From positions 1 to 31,703 of IMG/VR virus record IMGVR_UViG_3300044640_000846: 31,703 nucleotides of DNA; one strand, given 5' to 3'. The notes under the pieces were generated by a model. It did not search any database. It saw nothing but the letters and a program-made list of their open reading frames with translations, and was not told the DNA's origin. Numbering within the stretch: position 1 is the first letter of the stretch; each line of letters begins with the position of its first letter. This document shows positions 1,840 through 9,079 of this stretch, piece by piece. The DNA comes from a virus. The translations under genes were made by a program, and so were the position numbers.

Positions 1840-2655
1840 TTACTTGGTTTGTGTTTGTGGGAATTTATGTAAAATAGGGTCGTAAGAAAGTGTCTTCAAA
1901 GTTTCGCCTTTTACGAAACAATTCCATGTCTTAATTATCAAAGCCATTTTTACGGTTGGATTTATTTTTCTTACAGACATCCTATCCTGCATTAATCTAT
2001 TCCTCAAAAGTGAAATAGTATTATTTGTAATATCCATTCCAGTTGTCAACTGCTTCATAAAAGATTCAGCATTTTCAGAATTGATTTTATAAAAATGAGC
2101 GTAAAAACCGCCAATAAAAGAAGGTGCTAATATCTTTGCAAATGTCTGATACATTTGATGAGATTGCTTTGCTATATTTTGCCAAAAATCCTCATCACGA
2201 TAATATTGCTCAATCAACATTGCATTTGTTGATTTTTGATTTACACCAACTTTTGCCTTCTTGCCTTCTTCAAGAAGATTATACATTGCAATTATTGAAG
2301 GAATGGTATTGCCATGCTTAATTTCTGAAATCTTAAAAGCATCGGAGGCATTTCGTGAACTTCCAGTATCAATTACATCAAATACTGAATCTTCAATACC
2401 GGATATAATAAGCATTACAATTGCTTTATTTGCCTGTATAATGGCGTGAAGTCTGTGTTGCCCATCAAGTATTAATCCTGTTTCGGATATTTTAATTGAT
2501 TCACCTGTATGTTCTTTCCATCGTCCATTAACAATGTCATTGGCATACATATCAACTCGTCTGCTTTTGACAAGTCTGTTTTTAACATTTGCCTCAAGCA
2601 ATTGTTTTGCTCGTGTCGGAGTAATTAACTCCTCTTTGTAAATTAATTTTCCCAT
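1840..2655 (-). CDS. DGQHR-motif protein of the ParB/sulfiredoxin-like group
   Basis: 271-residue protein. The N-terminal half has the layout of ParB-N/sulfiredoxin-like domains: ITPTRAKQLLEANVKNR, a segment IVNGRWKEHTGESIKIS, and the signature LILDGQHRLHAI near residues 62-73, followed by hydrophobic strands (VMLIISGIEDSVFDVIDTG). The DGQHR motif is also known from Dnd-type and related DNA-modification proteins, so nucleotide or DNA chemistry is possible, but the catalytic activity is not established for phage members. The C-terminal half is helical with no recognised domain. It sits between the YqaJ exonuclease and the SSB-like gene, so a role in DNA metabolism is likely. Start ATG at 2655 follows the exonuclease stop by 13 nt. 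Confidence 0.6.
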   Translation of the reverse strand: MGKLIYKEELITPTRAKQLLEANVKNRLVKSRRVDMYANDIVNGRWKEHTGESIKISETGLILDGQHRLHAIIQANKAIVMLIISGIEDSVFDVIDTGSSRNASDAFKISEIKHGNTIPSIIAMYNLLEEGKKAKVGVNQKSTNAMLIEQYYRDEDFWQNIAKQSHQMYQTFAKILAPSFIGGFYAHFYKINSENAESFMKQLTTGMDITNNTISLLRNRLMQDRMSVRKINPTVKMALIIKTWNCFVKGETLKTLSYDPILHKFPQTQTK

Positions 2656-2668
2656 TTTTTTATACGGA

Positions 2669-3289
2669 TTAAAATGTTACTTGGTTAAAATACTTTTCAA
2701 ATTTAGCCCAAAATTTGACTACCTCAGCCTCGAGAGTGTTGAGTTCGTCGATTATATCGTTCCGCTCAATTCGATGGATGTACAAAGGTCTGGGTGTAAA
2801 GCGAGGGTCATACGAAACGAAATCAAGCCATTGCAATTTTTCATTTACAAGGAAGTATTGATACACTTGATACTTGTGGTCGTTCGGCAAGCCTCCCATG
2901 CGGATAGTCCTGATGTGCGTCTTTGTCGAAGGACATTTGACTTCAATACCACCTGTCCTGTCTGGCGTTAATCTATCCGGTGACATTGCAAGATATTCGA
3001 GTGTGTCATGCGTGCAGAATCCGACCTGCTCTAATTCGTGTCCAGTCTGCTTGGTGTAAATTTCAGACGCCTCACTCTCATGGTCTGTCCCCCATTGCAT
3101 CGCCTCGGACACGAATCCATCGACTTCATCCCAAACTGCCATATCTGGACATACTCGTTCATAAATAAGTTCGTCAACTACTTTCAGGTTGTCCGACTTC
3201 ATGATTCCAGCGACACGACTGCTGGTAATTTTTCCGATACGCAACTTATGCCAATCGGGCGTGCCTTGTTCAACTTTGTGCTCTATCAT
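2669..3289 (-). CDS. YqaJ-family (lambda exonuclease-like) recombination nuclease
   Basis: 206-residue protein of the PD-(D/E)XK YqaJ/lambda exo family, which degrades one strand of duplex DNA 5'-3' to give 3' overhangs for annealing. Visible hallmarks: GTPDWHKLRIGKITSS at residues 9-24 with the conserved W and R, WGTDHESEASEIY at 66-78 with conserved acidic residues, SPDRL with D105, and GGIEVKCP giving E116-x-K118 of the active site; a tyrosine-rich YQVYQYFLV helix follows. The length is normal for the family. The gene is 4 nt from the 164-residue gene upstream. No recognisable RecT, Erf or Sak annealase is adjacent, so its partner is unclear; the 164-residue protein and DUF3127 are the candidates. 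Confidence 0.85.
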   Translation of the reverse strand: MIEHKVEQGTPDWHKLRIGKITSSRVAGIMKSDNLKVVDELIYERVCPDMAVWDEVDGFVSEAMQWGTDHESEASEIYTKQTGHELEQVGFCTHDTLEYLAMSPDRLTPDRTGGIEVKCPSTKTHIRTIRMGGLPNDHKYQVYQYFLVNEKLQWLDFVSYDPRFTPRPLYIHRIERNDIIDELNTLEAEVVKFWAKFEKYFNQVTF

Positions 3290-3292
3290 AAA

Positions 3293-3787
3293 TTATTTGG
3301 TTAATTCGGTTTTCCTTAAATCCTTCGTACTCAAACAAGCCGTTTGACCTTCGCTATCAAGACCCTTCCAAAGCGTCTGCAATGTCGCTAAGTCCGGTGC
3401 GTTCCGGATTGCCTCGATAGTTGCAGTGTAATCCTGTGCTGGCTTTATACTTACCTTCTCGTTCCGTACCCGTAACGCATCCGTTACATCCCCAAACGCC
3501 TTGACCTTGTCTACTCCAATCTTTACTTGTTGTCCTGCCCACTTTTCAATCGCAGGTGTACCGAGCAATCTGGTTATCGTCTTGCAGTTGGTCTTGTTCA
3601 GAATAATCGGCTTCGTTTCTTTCGTAGTTGCAACGATGCAGTCCGACTTCTTTCCATCCGCACCCGGTACGGCTTTCTTCTCAACCGTAACGAGCGTTAC
3701 GATAATTTCCCGATACTGATTGTCCGATTCGAATAGGTCGTGACTTCCAAAGTAGTCAGGATTTGTTAACTGTTTCCAATGTGTCAT
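3293..3787 (-). CDS. Conserved phage protein next to YqaJ; possible recombination partner
   Basis: 164-residue protein starting MTHWKQLTNPDYFGSHDLF. The N-terminal 115 residues look like a compact beta-rich domain (REIIVTLVTVEKKAV, KPIILNKTNCKTITRLLG, GQQVKIGVDKVKAFGDV), followed by a helical tail (ATIEAIRNAPDLATLQTLWK). I have a general memory of this type of protein beside YqaJ exonucleases in other phages, but I cannot name a characterised family. Position between DnaB and the exonuclease, with 4 nt to the latter, suggests it binds single-stranded DNA or assists the exonuclease. That is inference from context. It is preceded by ATAAAAAACGAAAAC, an A-rich initiation region like those of the other early genes. 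Confidence 0.6.
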   Translation of the reverse strand: MTHWKQLTNPDYFGSHDLFESDNQYREIIVTLVTVEKKAVPGADGKKSDCIVATTKETKPIILNKTNCKTITRLLGTPAIEKWAGQQVKIGVDKVKAFGDVTDALRVRNEKVSIKPAQDYTATIEAIRNAPDLATLQTLWKGLDSEGQTACLSTKDLRKTELTK

Positions 3788-3811
3788 AGTGTTTTCGTTT
3801 TTTATAAAAAG

Positions 3812-5305
3812 TTAAAATGGTGCTGATTCATCTGTTTTAACGGAAAATATGTCCGAAGGTTTCAATATTTGCAAAATATTTTTTTCCGGTGCTGGCTGTG
3901 CCTGATGCGAATACATGACATACGGGGCAAATCGGGTGTAAGCCTTTTCAAACTTGGTCATTATAGCCCCGATACGCCCGTTCCGGTGCTTGCTTACATG
4001 AATCTCAGCCATATCGGTTGAGTTTGTAAATCCATCCGACATAAGTTCCTCTTTGTAGTATTCCGGTCTGTGCGGAAATATCACAATATCCGCATCCTGC
4101 TCGATTGCACCGGATTCCCTCAAATCGGATAAGTTCGGAATTGAATTACCCTTACCACGACTTTCGACTGCTCGGTTCAACTGAGATAAGACCATCACAG
4201 GTATATTACATTCCTTTGCAATGGCTTTCAAATTTCGGCTTATCGTACTGATTTCCTGCTCTCGGTTTCCGCTAAAATTACTGCCTGCTGTCATGAGTTG
4301 AAGGTAGTCAATCATGACTATTTTAATCCCAAATTCATGCACCATACGCCTGACTTTTGCCCTGAGTTCAAATACTGATACCTGCGGAGAATCATCTATG
4401 TAAATGGGTAAATCTTTTATACTCAGGGCTGATTCCTGAAACCTATCAAACTCGGATTGAGTGATATTGCCAGACCTTATCTTCTCTCCTTCAACACCTG
4501 ATTCCATTGATTCAAGCCTGAAAGTCAATTCCGATGCACCCATTTCCAAACTGAAAAAAGCAACAGGGAAACCGGATTTTGCGGAACTAACCGCAAAGTA
4601 CAAAGCGAGTGCAGTCTTACCCATACCCGGTCTCGCACCCACCACGATAAGATTTTGATTCTGCCAGCCTGAGAGTAAATTATTCAACTGATGAAACCCC
4701 GTATCAATCCCAGTTAGTCCGGTCTGGCAATTCATTCTCCGCCTCAACTCATCAATATTCGAGTAGGTCAGATTCAGGATGGAAACGGCTTGTTTTTTAT
4801 ACAGCGATTCCATCACCCGAAATACTTCCCCCTGCTGGTAATCCATCGTATCGAAGGCGTCATTAACAGGGTCATAAGCCATTGTAATCGTCTTATGGCT
4901 AATCCGTATCAACTCCCTTTGAATGTAGCACTCATGGATTAATTTACCGTTGTATTCAAAATTGATTTCGCCACTAAACTTCTGCCCGATTTCAATCAAG
5001 CGAATCATTCCCCCGGCTATTTCCAACTTCTCCAATTTTTTCAACTGCGAAATGACCGAAATCGTATCGACAGATTGACCGGATTGAAAAACATCGAAGC
5101 AAGCCTGAAAAATGGCAGAATTAGCCTCACTGTAAAACCAATCTGGCTGAACTGATGCAATTACACCGCTTACTGAGTTACGGTCATACAGAAGGCTGTA
5201 AAGTACCGATTCCTCCGCATCAGTGTTAAACGGTGGTAATTTGCCCTGAAATGCCGATTCGGTCAGGGGCTTAATTTCCTCTTTGTATTTTTTTCTATTG
5301 CTCAA
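3812..5305 (-). CDS. dnaB: Replicative DNA helicase, DnaB family
   Basis: 497-residue hexameric helicase that unwinds the replication fork 5'-3'. The N-terminal domain (LPPFNTDAEESVLYSLLYDR, residues 23-42) is followed by the RecA-like C-terminal domain with Walker A GARPGMGKT (223-231), FSLEM (251-255), Walker B IVMIDYLQL (329-337), SQLNRAVESR (374-383) and the SDLRESGAIEQDAD segment. All expected motifs are intact and the size is normal. The start is TTG at 5305..5303, overlapping the end of the initiator gene by 11 nt. It is supported by GGGAGG about 8 nt upstream, one of the few Shine-Dalgarno-like sites in the window, and by the need to include the LPPFN motif. It is presumably loaded at the origin by the initiator encoded just upstream. 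Confidence 0.93.
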   Translation of the reverse strand: MSNRKKYKEEIKPLTESAFQGKLPPFNTDAEESVLYSLLYDRNSVSGVIASVQPDWFYSEANSAIFQACFDVFQSGQSVDTISVISQLKKLEKLEIAGGMIRLIEIGQKFSGEINFEYNGKLIHECYIQRELIRISHKTITMAYDPVNDAFDTMDYQQGEVFRVMESLYKKQAVSILNLTYSNIDELRRRMNCQTGLTGIDTGFHQLNNLLSGWQNQNLIVVGARPGMGKTALALYFAVSSAKSGFPVAFFSLEMGASELTFRLESMESGVEGEKIRSGNITQSEFDRFQESALSIKDLPIYIDDSPQVSVFELRAKVRRMVHEFGIKIVMIDYLQLMTAGSNFSGNREQEISTISRNLKAIAKECNIPVMVLSQLNRAVESRGKGNSIPNLSDLRESGAIEQDADIVIFPHRPEYYKEELMSDGFTNSTDMAEIHVSKHRNGRIGAIMTKFEKAYTRFAPYVMYSHQAQPAPEKNILQILKPSDIFSVKTDESAPF

Positions 5306-6131
5306 AACTTATTCCTCCCATGTTTTTTTGAATTTCTGCTTTCATTGCTTCTTGTTTACGGATTTTGTCAACCGCAGGGCTTTGGCGGGCTTGTAATACT
5401 TTAACCGCCCTTTCATATGCCCATCCAGTAATTAATCCCCTGTAATCGCTTTTATTAGCCTGAACGCCTTTTGCATGGTTTTGTTTCCAACTATCGTAAA
5501 TCAAAATCATTTCATTGACTATTTGCTTATGGTTGTACCTTTCAAGTAGTTTTTTGTATTCCTTTTCAGTCAGGTATGTATATTCACAATCAATGGCAAG
5601 TAGAGGTTTTTTCCCCTCAGCCAGTCTTTGTTGAATAAACTCTTCGTCATTCAGTTTAATCTTTGCAGGTTTAATCTTTGCAGGTAAACTTTGTTGGCTG
5701 TCAACTTTGTTAACCGGTAAACTTTGTTTACCCAATAAGACAATACTATTACTATCTATATTACTAATACTTTCTTCTAATATATTATTGGGTAAACTTT
5801 GTTTACCCCTAACGGAAACTTTGTTAACCGGTAAACTTAGTTGACCGGTAAACTTAGTTAACCCCTCTGAATTAACTTTTAACCAGCCTTGTTCATTCTT
5901 AATCAGTAAGTTACGCTCAATAAGCCTCTGAATCGCTTTTAATAAACCGACCTTGCTCATTCCGAACTCATCTGCAAGCCTTAATTTGCCTACATAGCAC
6001 CATCTAGAACCGTTTTCGTCGTACTCGCTAAAGTATCTAATCCTTTCGAGTAATCCAGCCTCGACGAAGGAAACATTGAGTTCCTTCATCAAAGCCAGAT
6101 TGACCATTACGAATGATTTAGATTCTATCAT
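5295..6131 (-). CDS. Winged-helix replication initiator-like protein with intragenic iterons
   Basis: 278-residue protein. Residues 1-95 form a winged helix-turn-helix-like domain (FVEAGLLERIRYFSEYDENG, VGKLRLADEFGMSKVGLLKA, IQRLIERNLLIKNEQGWLKV). The middle (about 90-155) is a low-complexity linker with repeats of GKQSLPVNKV. The C-terminal part (YLTEKEYKKLLERYNHKQIV to GLITGWAYERAVKVL) resembles the C-terminal domain of phage replisome organisers that recruit helicase. Directly upstream of dnaB with an 11-nt overlap, it fits the lambda O-like role of binding the origin and loading the helicase. The linker repeats exist because the DNA beneath them is an iteron array (5655-5863), just as the lambda origin lies inside gene O. 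Assignment as initiator rests on fold resemblance, context and iterons together. Confidence 0.75.
   Translation of the reverse strand: MIESKSFVMVNLALMKELNVSFVEAGLLERIRYFSEYDENGSRWCYVGKLRLADEFGMSKVGLLKAIQRLIERNLLIKNEQGWLKVNSEGLTKFTGQLSLPVNKVSVRGKQSLPNNILEESISNIDSNSIVLLGKQSLPVNKVDSQQSLPAKIKPAKIKLNDEEFIQQRLAEGKKPLLAIDCEYTYLTEKEYKKLLERYNHKQIVNEMILIYDSWKQNHAKGVQANKSDYRGLITGWAYERAVKVLQARQSPAVDKIRKQEAMKAEIQKNMGGISFEQ
5655..5863. other. Putative replication origin: iteron array around an AT-rich core
   Basis: Seven related units of about 17 bp, consensus GGTAAACTTTGTTTACC, occur at 5683-5698, 5700-5715, 5716-5732, 5791-5807, 5814-5829, 5830-5846 and 5847-5863. Each unit is itself a hyphenated palindrome (GGTAAAC/GTTTACC arms). 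Between the third and fourth lies an AT-rich segment (5734-5789), and the flanking arms GTTTACCCAATAA (5727-5739) and TTATTGGGTAAAC (5784-5796) form a perfect 13-bp inverted repeat around it. Two tandem 15-bp repeats TTTAATCTTTGCAGG lie at 5655-5684. Iterons plus an AT-rich unwinding region inside an initiator gene is the known layout of lambdoid origins; function here is inferred. Confidence 0.75.
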
Positions 6132-6409
6132 AAAAATAAAGTTTCACGCATTAAGTGATATGACTTTCTTTCAGATGAATCAAGAACAATATTTTCATTA
6201 CTCAACCTACCTAATAATTCATACAACAAAGCCTCGTTTTCTTTATTTTCTACCATAGAAACCTTAAGGGTTGAATAATTATAATCCAAATCCTGATATT
6301 CATACAAACAAAGAATATCCTGAGTTTCACGACCTTTACCAAACTCTTTTACGAGTTTGTCGCATTTTGATTGAACTTCTGTTCTTAATTCATTGGCAAA
6401 ATCTTCCAT
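6128..6409 (-). CDS. Hypothetical acidic early protein, first gene of the replication operon
   Basis: 93-residue protein (MEDFANELRTEVQSKCDKLV...), mostly helical and acidic, with no recognised motif. Its stop overlaps the start of the initiator gene by 4 nt (ATGA), so translation is coupled. It is the first coding sequence behind the promoter at 6551-6558 and the terminator-like hairpin at 6421-6470; its ATG is about 12 nt past the T-run. Expression of this gene, and with it the initiator and helicase, would therefore depend on read-through of that hairpin. Function unknown. Confidence 0.65.
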   Translation of the reverse strand: MEDFANELRTEVQSKCDKLVKEFGKGRETQDILCLYEYQDLDYNYSTLKVSMVENKENEALLYELLGRLSNENIVLDSSERKSYHLMRETLFL

Positions 6410-6420
6410 AACTTACTTTA

Positions 6421-6470
6421 AATTAAAAACCCCCGAAATAATGTGGTGGCAGTCACATTATTCCAAGGGG
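6421..6470 (-). terminator. Intrinsic terminator-like hairpin with T-run
   Basis: Reading leftward: CCCC, an internal loop, a 9-bp stem AATAATGTG/CACATTATT around an 8-nt loop, GGGGG and then TTTTT. On the plus strand no T-run follows, so it acts leftward only. It lies inside the leader of the replication operon rather than at an operon end. Confidence 0.7.
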
Positions 6471-6546
6471 TTCTGTTTGACATAAGTCAAATCGTTGTAT
6501 TCTCTGCCACAAGAATATCCGGTATATATTGTCCCCGGAAAGACTA
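6421..6546 (-). ncRNA. Structured leader RNA or small RNA upstream of the replication operon
   Basis: Between the promoter at 6551-6558 and the 93-residue gene, the leftward transcript contains three hairpins in series and no convincing ORF. In transcript order they are TCCGG/CCGGA (6539-6535 with 6522-6518), TTTGAC/GTCAAA with a 4-nt loop (6491-6476), and a terminator hairpin at 6470-6431 followed by T5. GTGGCAG, immediately after the first hairpin (6510-6504), is perfectly complementary to CTGCCAC in the loop of the terminator hairpin (6452-6446). This permits a pseudoknot or an alternative antiterminator fold. It is either an attenuator of the replication genes or a stand-alone RNA of about 115-125 nt. 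I do not recognise it as a known RNA family. Confidence 0.5.
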
Positions 6547-6550
6547 TACG

Positions 6551-6558
6551 CAAATTTA
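6551..6558 (-). promoter_or_regulatory. Bacteroidota-type promoter (TAnnTTTG) of the leader RNA
   Basis: Minus strand reads TAAATTTG, a match to TAnnTTTG, in the short gap after the lipoprotein gene. A transcript would begin near 6546 and run into the structured leader and then the replication genes. Confidence 0.55.
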
Positions 6559-6563
6559 CAAAA

Positions 6564-6773
6564 TTATTCGCATACTACAACAAATCCGGGCTGTTTGTTG
6601 CTATTCATATTTTTTACAAACTCATCATTTTCTTTTTTGCCCTGACATACCTCAGCCCAAGTTTTCGTTTGCTCTGGGTAGTCTTTGTGCCAACTCGTAC
6701 ACTTTACACATTTTGGTTTGCATCCAGAAAACGCCAAAACCATCAAAACTGAAACAAATACATATTTTCTCAT
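6564..6773 (-). CDS. Small secreted lipoprotein
   Basis: 69-residue protein from ATG 6773: MRKYVFVSVLMVLAFSGCKP. This is a textbook lipoprotein signal: basic start, hydrophobic core, and lipobox FSGC with the modified cysteine at residue 18. The mature part is about 50 residues, with a CVKC pair right after the lipobox and further cysteines near residues 43 and 68. An upstream in-frame ATG at 6875 is rejected because it would bury the signal peptide and overlap the RusA gene. In the phage context an early lipoprotein could act at the envelope, for example in superinfection exclusion, as small phage lipoproteins do elsewhere. This is inference only. Confidence 0.7.
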   Translation of the reverse strand: MRKYVFVSVLMVLAFSGCKPKCVKCTSWHKDYPEQTKTWAEVCQGKKENDEFVKNMNSNKQPGFVVVCE

Positions 6774-6792
6774 AACTTTCAAATTTACATTG

Positions 6793-7155
6793 TTAAAATT
6801 CCAAAATAATTTTGCCCTCATAGCCCCAAATCTTCTGAGCCTGAATCGTATGAACCCCTGAATCATCCTTTCCAAAACAATCCATAAAGCCCTTGACCAT
6901 GTTGTCTATATCGGGCTTGTAACGATGTGGACTGCCTTCTAACTCCCTGCACTGCTTCTGGGTGTAACTTATCGGGAAAGGCATAACGAACACAATCCGA
7001 AACGATTCTGGACACTCACGAACGCCAAAACCTTTCAGGAACATCATTACAGCCGTTTTGTATCGGGCATATTTGTGATAACGCTCATCTGTGTACTTTC
7101 CCCTCTGTGTTGTTCGCACAGCACCCATTGGGTTGATGTCAATTTCGATTCGCAT
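6793..7155 (-). CDS. rusA: RusA-family Holliday junction resolvase
   Basis: 120-residue endonuclease of the RusA family, which resolves four-way junctions during phage recombination and before packaging. The core signature is visible: HRYKPDIDNMVKGFMD (residues 78-92), with the conserved aspartates D82 and D84 and K88, then DDSGV (97-101) with the further acidic residue, and QAQKIW near 105-110. Length is typical. Start ATG 7155 is chosen over an in-frame upstream ATG at 7194 because MRIEIDINPMGAVRTT is the usual RusA N-terminus and because a TACCTTTG promoter lies only 4 nt upstream of 7155. It is the first gene of the leftward early block. Confidence 0.88.
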   Translation of the reverse strand: MRIEIDINPMGAVRTTQRGKYTDERYHKYARYKTAVMMFLKGFGVRECPESFRIVFVMPFPISYTQKQCRELEGSPHRYKPDIDNMVKGFMDCFGKDDSGVHTIQAQKIWGYEGKIILEF

Positions 7156-7159
7156 TGTG

Positions 7160-7167
7160 CAAAGGTA
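7160..7167 (-). promoter_or_regulatory. Promoter for the leftward early genes (TAnnTTTG)
   Basis: Minus strand reads TACCTTTG, ending 4 nt before the rusA ATG. Since Bacteroidota transcripts begin a few bases past this element, the start codon should be at or almost at the 5' end of the mRNA. It is divergent from the element at 7212-7219. Confidence 0.65.
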
Positions 7168-7211
7168 AACGGCATTGGCTTCAAAAGGTTTCAAAATATT
7201 TTACAAAATAC

Positions 7212-7458: not shown

Positions 7459-7986
7459 ATGGCAAAAAGACAACCAGTTAAGCCAGTAGGGTTGACCGCA
7501 CCCGAAGCGGTAAAAAATAAAGGGGGTAGACCCACAATATTTACTCAAGAATTAGCAGACCGAATCTGTGATGAAATAATGAAATCAGAAAAGGGTATTT
7601 TTGCCTTATCTGAATCACTTGATTGGTTTCCTGCACCCAGTTCTATTTATTTATGGCTTGACCAATACCCAAAGTTTTCGGAGTGTTATACGCGGAGCAA
7701 GCAAGCCCAATCAGACCGAATGGCTGAATCCTGTCTTGTTATTGCAGACGATTCAAGCGGAGATACAATCGAAACCAGCAAGGGCGTAATTGAAAATCGG
7801 GAATTTACAAGCCGTTCAAAACTCAGAGTTGAAACAAGAATGTGGCTAATGGAACGGCTCTCTCCGAAAAAATACGGTAAGTTATCACAGGAGGCAGACC
7901 CAGCAAATAATCAAGCCGAATCCTACCAACCGCCCCAAATAACCGTAACCATCAGCAAGGAAGCAATTGATAAACTAAACAAATAA
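7459..7986 (+). CDS. terS: Terminase small subunit (Sf6-like)
   Basis: 175-residue DNA-recognition subunit of the packaging motor. The sequence follows the Sf6-type small terminase layout: GGRPTIFTQELADRICDEIM, SESLDWFPAPSSIYLWLDQY as a helix-turn-helix, then FSECYTRSKQAQSDRMAESC, the IADDSSGDT motif, and RSKLRVETRMWLMERLSPKK plus YGKL. The Pro/Gln-rich C-terminus (YQPPQITVTISKEAIDKLNK) may contact the large subunit. ATG 7459 is used; a TTG eight codons upstream overlaps the promoter and adds nothing of the family. The large subunit lies 1.1 kb downstream, separated by two small genes and a methyltransferase. Confidence 0.85.
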   Translation: MAKRQPVKPVGLTAPEAVKNKGGRPTIFTQELADRICDEIMKSEKGIFALSESLDWFPAPSSIYLWLDQYPKFSECYTRSKQAQSDRMAESCLVIADDSSGDTIETSKGVIENREFTSRSKLRVETRMWLMERLSPKKYGKLSQEADPANNQAESYQPPQITVTISKEAIDKLNK

Positions 7987-7990
7987 AACC

Positions 7991-8206
7991 ATGGAAACAT
8001 TTACAGCAGATTACGCAAGACAATTAGTCGAACGCTCCAAACTGAAAGAACTTGGATTGATTCTGGCAGACATTCACAGTGTTGCCGAAACCGGAGCAAC
8101 TGAACTTGTATTGAGTTACAAGTTAAAAAACAACACTGAATTTGAGTTGAATAAACTCGGATTTGTGATTGAGAATCACGAACCGCATACCTTTATCCGG
8201 TGGTAA
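7991..8206 (+). CDS. Hypothetical small protein
   Basis: 71 residues (METFTADYARQLVERSKLKE...), an alpha helix followed by beta-strand pattern (GATELVLSYKLKNNTEFELN, LGFVIENHEPHTFIRW). No family recognised and no membrane or secretion signal. It starts 4 nt after the small terminase stop and ends 1 nt before the next gene, so it belongs to the same operon. Some phages keep packaging accessory genes between the terminase subunits; whether this is one cannot be told from the sequence. Confidence 0.65.
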   Translation: METFTADYARQLVERSKLKELGLILADIHSVAETGATELVLSYKLKNNTEFELNKLGFVIENHEPHTFIRW

Positions 8207-8443: not shown

Positions 8444-9079
8444 ATGACATCAGAGGTATATTTAGAAGATTGCGTTTCAGGAATGAAGCGATATGCTGAC
8501 AATTATTTTGACTTGGCTATTGTTGACCCACCGTATGGGATTAAAAGAGATGGACACCACCAAGACAAAAAGCCAACAAACGGAGGAAGAAAGAACTTTG
8601 AATTTAAAGGATGGGATAATGCTATTCCTACTGCTGAATATTGGGGTGAATTATACAGAGTATCTAAAAATCAAATTGTGTGGGGTGCAAATTATATGAC
8701 TGAATTTTTAAAGCCTTCGATGGGGTGGATAGTTTGGAGAAAAAACAGAGGTAACTTTACTTCATCAGATGCCGAACTTGCATACACATCATATAACAAA
8801 GCATTAAGGGAATATACTAAAAACCCATTTGTTTTGATACAAGAAGGCGGAACTATACACCCTACTCAAAAGCCGATTTGCTTATATGATTTTTGTTATC
8901 AGTATGCAAAATTAGAACAAGGTAATTTGATTTTAGACACACATTTAGGCTCAGGAAGCAGTCGAATCGCAGCGTACAAAGGCGGTTTTAATTTTGTTGG
9001 ATTTGAAATAGACCGCGAGTATTTCGATAAACAAAACAGACGCTTCCACGACTTCAAATCTCAACTAAGATTGTTTTGA
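8444..9079 (+). CDS. Orphan DNA methyltransferase, DPPY type
   Basis: 211-residue S-adenosylmethionine-dependent DNA methyltransferase of the N6-adenine/N4-cytosine group. The catalytic motif IV DPPYG is at residues 28-32, near the N-terminus, HPTQKP at 139-144, and the cofactor motif I region DTHLGSGSSRIAA at 165-177. Catalytic motif before cofactor motif is the beta-class order. No restriction endonuclease is nearby, so it is likely a protective (anti-restriction) or regulatory modification enzyme; target site unknown. It lies between the small and large terminase genes, and its TGA overlaps the TTG start of the large subunit. Its codon use does not stand out by eye. Confidence 0.88.
   Translation: MTSEVYLEDCVSGMKRYADNYFDLAIVDPPYGIKRDGHHQDKKPTNGGRKNFEFKGWDNAIPTAEYWGELYRVSKNQIVWGANYMTEFLKPSMGWIVWRKNRGNFTSSDAELAYTSYNKALREYTKNPFVLIQEGGTIHPTQKPICLYDFCYQYAKLEQGNLILDTHLGSGSSRIAAYKGGFNFVGFEIDREYFDKQNRRFHDFKSQLRLF

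Follow-up and report, generated by a model that had tools for sequence, protein, structure and literature searches.

What does a structured RNA do between the promoter and the first replication gene of a phage, when one of its hairpin loops is the perfect complement of the loop of its own terminator? The question arises at 6425-6558 on the minus strand of the window, by which we mean the whole stretch of DNA analysed, a 31.7 kb virus record from IMG/VR (31,703 nt). Comparison with relatives suggests that the element is a real, apparently uncatalogued regulatory RNA, which probably meters phage replication.

The leader and its setting in the replication operon

The leader heads an operon running leftward through a 93-aa gene, a replisome organizer, a DnaB helicase, a RecE-like exonuclease and a single-strand binding protein. 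The first of these genes (6128..6409, minus strand; an ORF with its ATG at 6409) matched no family in Pfam or PHROGs and also lies 3' of the element in one relative (L004). It is followed by a replication initiator or replisome organizer (5295..6131, minus strand; weak PHROG matches) and by a DnaB-like replicative helicase (3812..5305, minus strand; PHROG_19 5.7e-106, PF03796 1.9e-92). Upstream of the leader are RusA (6793-7194) and a small lipoprotein-like ORF, and the opposite strand carries terminase, portal and tape-measure genes. A DNA methyltransferase gene (PHROG_67, 8444-9079) lies between the genes for the terminase subunits. The small ORF (6564-6772), situated between leader and RusA and present in relative L008 too, has an N-terminus resembling a lipoprotein signal (MRKYVFVSVLMVLAFSGC...) and could be a candidate superinfection-exclusion lipoprotein.

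An earlier note on this DNA had described a TAnnTTTG promoter box, a terminator hairpin, T5 and the first replication-operon gene at this place, and all of them are present on the minus strand. The promoter -7 box TAAATTTG (6551..6558) is by its sequence of the TAnnTTTG type of Bacteroidota, and a sequence scan found TTG at 6580-6578, 19 nt 5' of it. TAnnTTTG boxes are an established promoter type of Bacteroidota, and on that basis we presume a Bacteroidota host; a host search with the large terminase gave no match in 395 Bacteroidota genomes and returned distant phage relatives only.

The features that follow the promoter are all on the minus strand. P0 (6518..6539, UCCGG/CCGGA) is a variable 5' hairpin predicted by folding. 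P1 (6498..6517) is a 6-bp hairpin, UAUUCU/AGAAUA, with its arms encoded by TATTCT (6517-6512) and AGAATA (6503-6498) and an 8-nt loop of U plus GUGGCAG (6511-6504), the latter being the kissing sequence L1 (6504..6510). P2 (6476..6491, UUUGAC/GUCAAA) leads to P3 (6428..6472), an intrinsic-terminator hairpin of 17 modelled bp with a conserved bulged U, whose loop of A plus CUGCCAC (6453-6446) holds the perfectly complementary kissing sequence L3 (6446..6452). The U5 tract of the terminator is at 6425..6429, and the ATG at 6409 stands 15 nt past it. Two hairpins had been counted before the terminator, which was one too few, P1 being a further one (P0, P1 and P2 precede P3). GTGGCAG had been called a segment complementary to the terminator loop; the perfect complementarity holds, but the sequence belongs to the 8-nt loop of P1, and the interaction is therefore loop-loop (kissing), as covariation confirms.

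The predicted folding energy of the element is -46.8 kcal/mol, with z = -5.0 relative to dinucleotide shuffles, and P3 was the top terminator-like site, with 16 pairs, in a terminator scan of the first 12 kb. Sequence, fold and scan thus bear out a structured leader with an intrinsic terminator 5' of the replication genes. When the upstream stretch was shuffled, a 7-nt perfect complement of the terminator loop arose by chance in 90 of 20,000 trials, so that the pairing by itself is suggestive and the relatives are decisive. Both 7-mers are confined to L1 and L3, with no other copy on either strand of the 31.7 kb.

The presence of this terminator also bears on a put-like element, which would act on the elongating RNA polymerase and suppress downstream termination in the early operon. 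A structured RNA right after the promoter at the head of an early operon is what HK022 put presents (PMC9378689), but here the element's own terminator belongs to the conserved structure and a consensus scan found no further terminator downstream in the operon on this strand, which makes this explanation highly improbable.

Relatives and covariation of the two loops

A protein search gave two relatives, L002 and L003, whose leaders keep the architecture with different kisses, CTGCAAG/CTTGCAG and CGGCAAG/CTTGCCG. The first viral pattern, built on the window's own kiss, had no match. Further relatives came from pattern searches on the terminator base, or on P2 plus the terminator, with loop bases unspecified. 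A final pattern with loop bases specified added no contig, and the kiss is therefore not an ascertainment effect; conservation of the terminator base partly is. Four pattern matches (L043, L044, L047 and L049) scored below 17 bits with the family model described next and were dropped. Altogether the same RNA was found in about 20 environmental phage contigs of IMG/VR, mostly fragmentary records, which provided 15 distinct aligned elements.

In ten relatives, with the window excluded, 97.7% of the cells were paired, the kiss was paired in 100%, and 15 pairs carried double changes (0/500 shuffles). A model of these ten, R1, recovered P1, P2 and P3 of the window with 70.1 bits (E 2.3e-12, R1 E-values being rough). 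The 15-element alignment, window included, was fitted to R1, and the kiss is no part of the R1 structure. It was 97.9% paired, as against 37-51% in slid controls (0/500 shuffles), with double changes in 3/6 pairs of P1, 3/5 modelled pairs of P2 and 8/17 pairs of P3. The 7-bp complementarity of the 8-nt loops of P1 and P3 was present in all 15 aligned elements, being Watson-Crick in 104/104 cells with double changes at 4/7 pairs. Covariation of GTGGCAG with CTGCCAC, proposed earlier as a check on the pairing, was thus looked for and found.

Among the 15 elements there are six loop-pair types. Perfect pairing of all six is achieved by just one of the 720 possible assignments of L3 to L1 types, namely the observed one. 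Matched kiss duplexes have predicted energies of -8.6 to -11.1 kcal/mol, and cross pairs are mostly weaker than -7 kcal/mol, with the exception of the GUGGCAG and CUGGCAG types at about -9.

G-U pairs are conserved in P3, with U-G at one pair in 14 of the 15 elements, and these favour RNA over DNA hairpins. This is relevant to the idea of a recombination junction or DNA hairpin, such as an origin or module linker, in place of a working RNA. The element does lie at mosaic borders (between the window and L008, and between L045 and L051), but mosaicism fits both readings, and the orientation of promoter and U-run, the G-U pairs and the covariation of the kiss indicate RNA, leaving the junction barely credible.

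A TAnnTTTG box is located 4-32 nt upstream of 14/16 copies, and L003 and L004 have GATATTTG with one mismatch. About ten copies including the window have a hairpin at the position of P0; its sequence is unrelated among lineages and its site between promoter and P1 is kept. P0 is absent from L011, L012, L017, L045, L048 and L051, in which the transcript would begin at P1; in these same six the element precedes a helicase gene (ResIII/DEAD type where tested) and not a rep gene. Downstream genes thus vary between rep-operon genes and ResIII/DEAD-type helicases.

The ATG is 11-15 nt past the U-run in the copies counted (L003 by hand, L051 left out), which favours a cis-acting leader; the terminated form is possibly an sRNA as well. 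The short fixed distance and a conserved AT-rich spacer would also suit a 5' UTR element for stability or translation. The kissed fold would then shield the replication mRNA or display its start site, with most transcription continuing past the U-run hairpin. P3, however, bears all the marks of an intrinsic terminator, none in the scanned region being stronger, and every aligned copy except L012 retains the U5 tract, so that we regard such an element as unlikely.

The earlier note knew no family for this RNA, and Rfam 15 likewise had none that matched the element: its covariance models gave no match in the window at gathering score and none up to E 10 in 6300-6700. There was accordingly no Rfam riboswitch match, though a ligand of a novel kind is conceivable. 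Plasmids gave no match, cultured phages just a 35-nt chance match and no family member, and Flavobacterium phage FPSV-S1, which has a related helicase, no match upstream of that gene. A pattern search of a genome collection returned 20 stretches, none a family member (L026 and L030 with at most 20.9 bits, the rest by eye), and a weak model match in Salegentibacter (29.5 bits) was by eye an ordinary terminator. The model search of 395 genomes was empty, a weak result as it had no positive control and scored few candidates per genome.

Loop-pair exchange and possible modes of control

Comparison of closely related contigs showed loop pairs exchanged as matched sets. L045 and L048 are identical at 1375/1376 positions downstream and 95% identical upstream, yet differ at 16/92 positions of the element (element versus downstream divergence, Fisher 2.5e-19). 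The differences are mainly in L1, the closing pair of P1 and P3 (top three pairs, mid stem and L3), and the loops differ between the two contigs while each contig is internally matched. L045 and L051 have identical elements followed by unrelated DNA, and identity between the window and L008 drops from 96% upstream to 52% downstream. Both recombinational cassette exchange and selection for new specificity fit these data. RusA lies 5' of the leader also in L003, L004, L005 and L008, and from the element onward the downstream genes differ, which places the leader at a module border.

The 70 kb phage contig L046 carries two tandem promoter-leader-terminator units (7780-8017) with the kisses GTGGAAG and GTGAGAG before one rep operon, likely a diverged tandem duplication. 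The first copy has no complete gene before the second promoter, an arrangement that suits an sRNA role as well.

Such an sRNA is the basis of a possible, tentatively held alternative, self-specific control in trans. The terminated leader would build up as an sRNA, and pairing of its L3 with L1 of newly made leaders of the same type (or of its L1 with their L3) would lower readthrough. With similar reserve, this control could amount to replication feedback together with exclusion of co-infecting phages that have the same loops, hence the diversification of loop pairs. In its favour are the six loop-pair types with most cross pairs far weaker than the matched duplexes, the near-identical downstream DNA of L045 and L048 beside differing matched loops, the one phage with tandem copies of different loops, and a precedent for RNA-based termination of replication genes in the P4 CI RNA (PMC4825925). 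Pairing of two molecules would also be sterically at least as easy, by a hand estimate, since in cis a kiss of seven full base pairs would form a long coaxial stack that the short P1-P3 linker would have to bridge.

Against this stand several observations. A search of 14 records, most of them fragments, revealed no tyrosine integrase, and no copy of the element turned up in bacterial genomes, as a prophage or otherwise, by exact pattern or in the model search of sampled genomes; lysogenic immunity is therefore doubtful. In 8/9 pairs tested, variability at the kiss positions did not significantly exceed that elsewhere in the element, so that diversifying selection is without support, and the suggestion that the kiss bases change faster than any other part likewise found no support in these eight pairs. 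Two loop types cross-pair at about -9 kcal/mol, and the window has no extra target site. In view of the missing integrase, prophage copy and extra target we keep trans control as a rival. Rather doubtful is a broader form, RNA-only self-recognition among phages, in which the terminated leader RNA would read the loop type of incoming or replicating genomes by kissing and shut the replication operon. Loop types would be swapped as cassettes, in the manner of immunity or incompatibility groups, and no protein repressor would take part.

On the sequence evidence we lean, with some reserve, towards a new family of phage leader RNAs in which readthrough of the terminator is controlled by the kissing loop. 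The TAnnTTTG promoter would give rise to a transcript that folds into P1, P2 and, as the terminator hairpin, P3. Most such transcripts would probably stop at the U-run with a length of 95-125 nt, while some would continue into the replication operon. Because L1 is finished and accessible by the time L3 is synthesised, the two could pair while P3 is half transcribed; this pairing would then set the speed or stability of terminator closing and thereby meter readthrough. Transcription and termination of the leader RNA, as well as control of termination by the kiss, are what we infer from these features. When only the RNA up to the end of L3 was folded, the predicted minimum-free-energy structure included L1:L3 in 13/16 copies.

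A classical antiterminator/terminator switch, which had been considered earlier, lacks a conserved alternative helix capturing the 5' arm of the terminator: such a helix has a probability of 0.00-0.25 in 15/16 copies and reaches 0.72 only in the divergent L046a. We read this as evidence against the classical switch and as favouring a kiss that acts on terminator closing. The conserved loop-loop complementarity ends at the loop borders and is therefore compatible with the terminator stem. The steric demand of the kiss in cis, noted above, weighs against metering by the kiss, as do two further points. With no conserved competing structure, the route to altered termination is not evident from sequence, and a terminator near the ATG could simply insulate the gene from upstream transcription.

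Comparison with known systems

Leader attenuation and RNA kissing are already known. If the kiss controls readthrough, the element would be a protein-free replication switch for Bacteroidota phages, and its natural set of loop pairs, mostly mutually weak partners, would be ready parts for testing kissing control of termination. A terminator loop that is the conserved, covarying partner of an upstream loop and is exchanged with it in matched pairs was not found in Rfam or in the related literature consulted, although an unnamed listing in the tables of a human-microbiome structured-RNA survey (PMC8040213) is possible.

The P4 CI RNA acts by pairing within the leader, which ends transcription of its own replication operon (PMC4825925). 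Both systems belong to the untranslated leader of replication genes in a phage, and both feature a short RNA, short complementary stretches in one leader and output by premature termination. The P4 RNA is described there as processed from the leader and as having two targets, seqA and seqC, whereas here a hairpin loop faces an intrinsic-terminator loop, the window has no extra target like seqA or seqC, and the search for a tyrosine integrase in 14 records gave no sign of lysogeny. In the same account, Gifsy-1 IsrK resembles the element in having a single promoter for both a terminated short RNA and a readthrough mRNA; it differs, by description only, in that IsrK activates translation of an antirepressor and that no kiss with its own terminator loop is described there. 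HK022 put shares the structured RNA in early phage transcripts (PMC9378689), but suppresses termination via RNA polymerase, while the present element contains a terminator.

Attenuators of the pT181 type likewise place an intrinsic terminator in a replication-gene leader and rely on loop-loop kissing, with the loops determining specificity (PMC4878617). They also have a complementary antisense RNA and an antiterminator that captures a terminator arm (PMC4878617); here the corresponding pairing with the terminator 5' arm was not conserved (0.00-0.25 in 15/16 copies). No antisense TAnnTTTG box was found on the plus strand at 2150-6807, other promoter types being possible, and a few relatives have scattered boxes. 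In antisense-controlled plasmids small loop changes switch specificity (PMC10724649). IncK RNAI is a close likeness in this respect, since changes of a few loop bases switch the specificity of its replication-controlling kissing pair (PMC10724649); the IncK partners are a sense and an antisense RNA, whereas here both loops are encoded on one strand and carried by one RNA.
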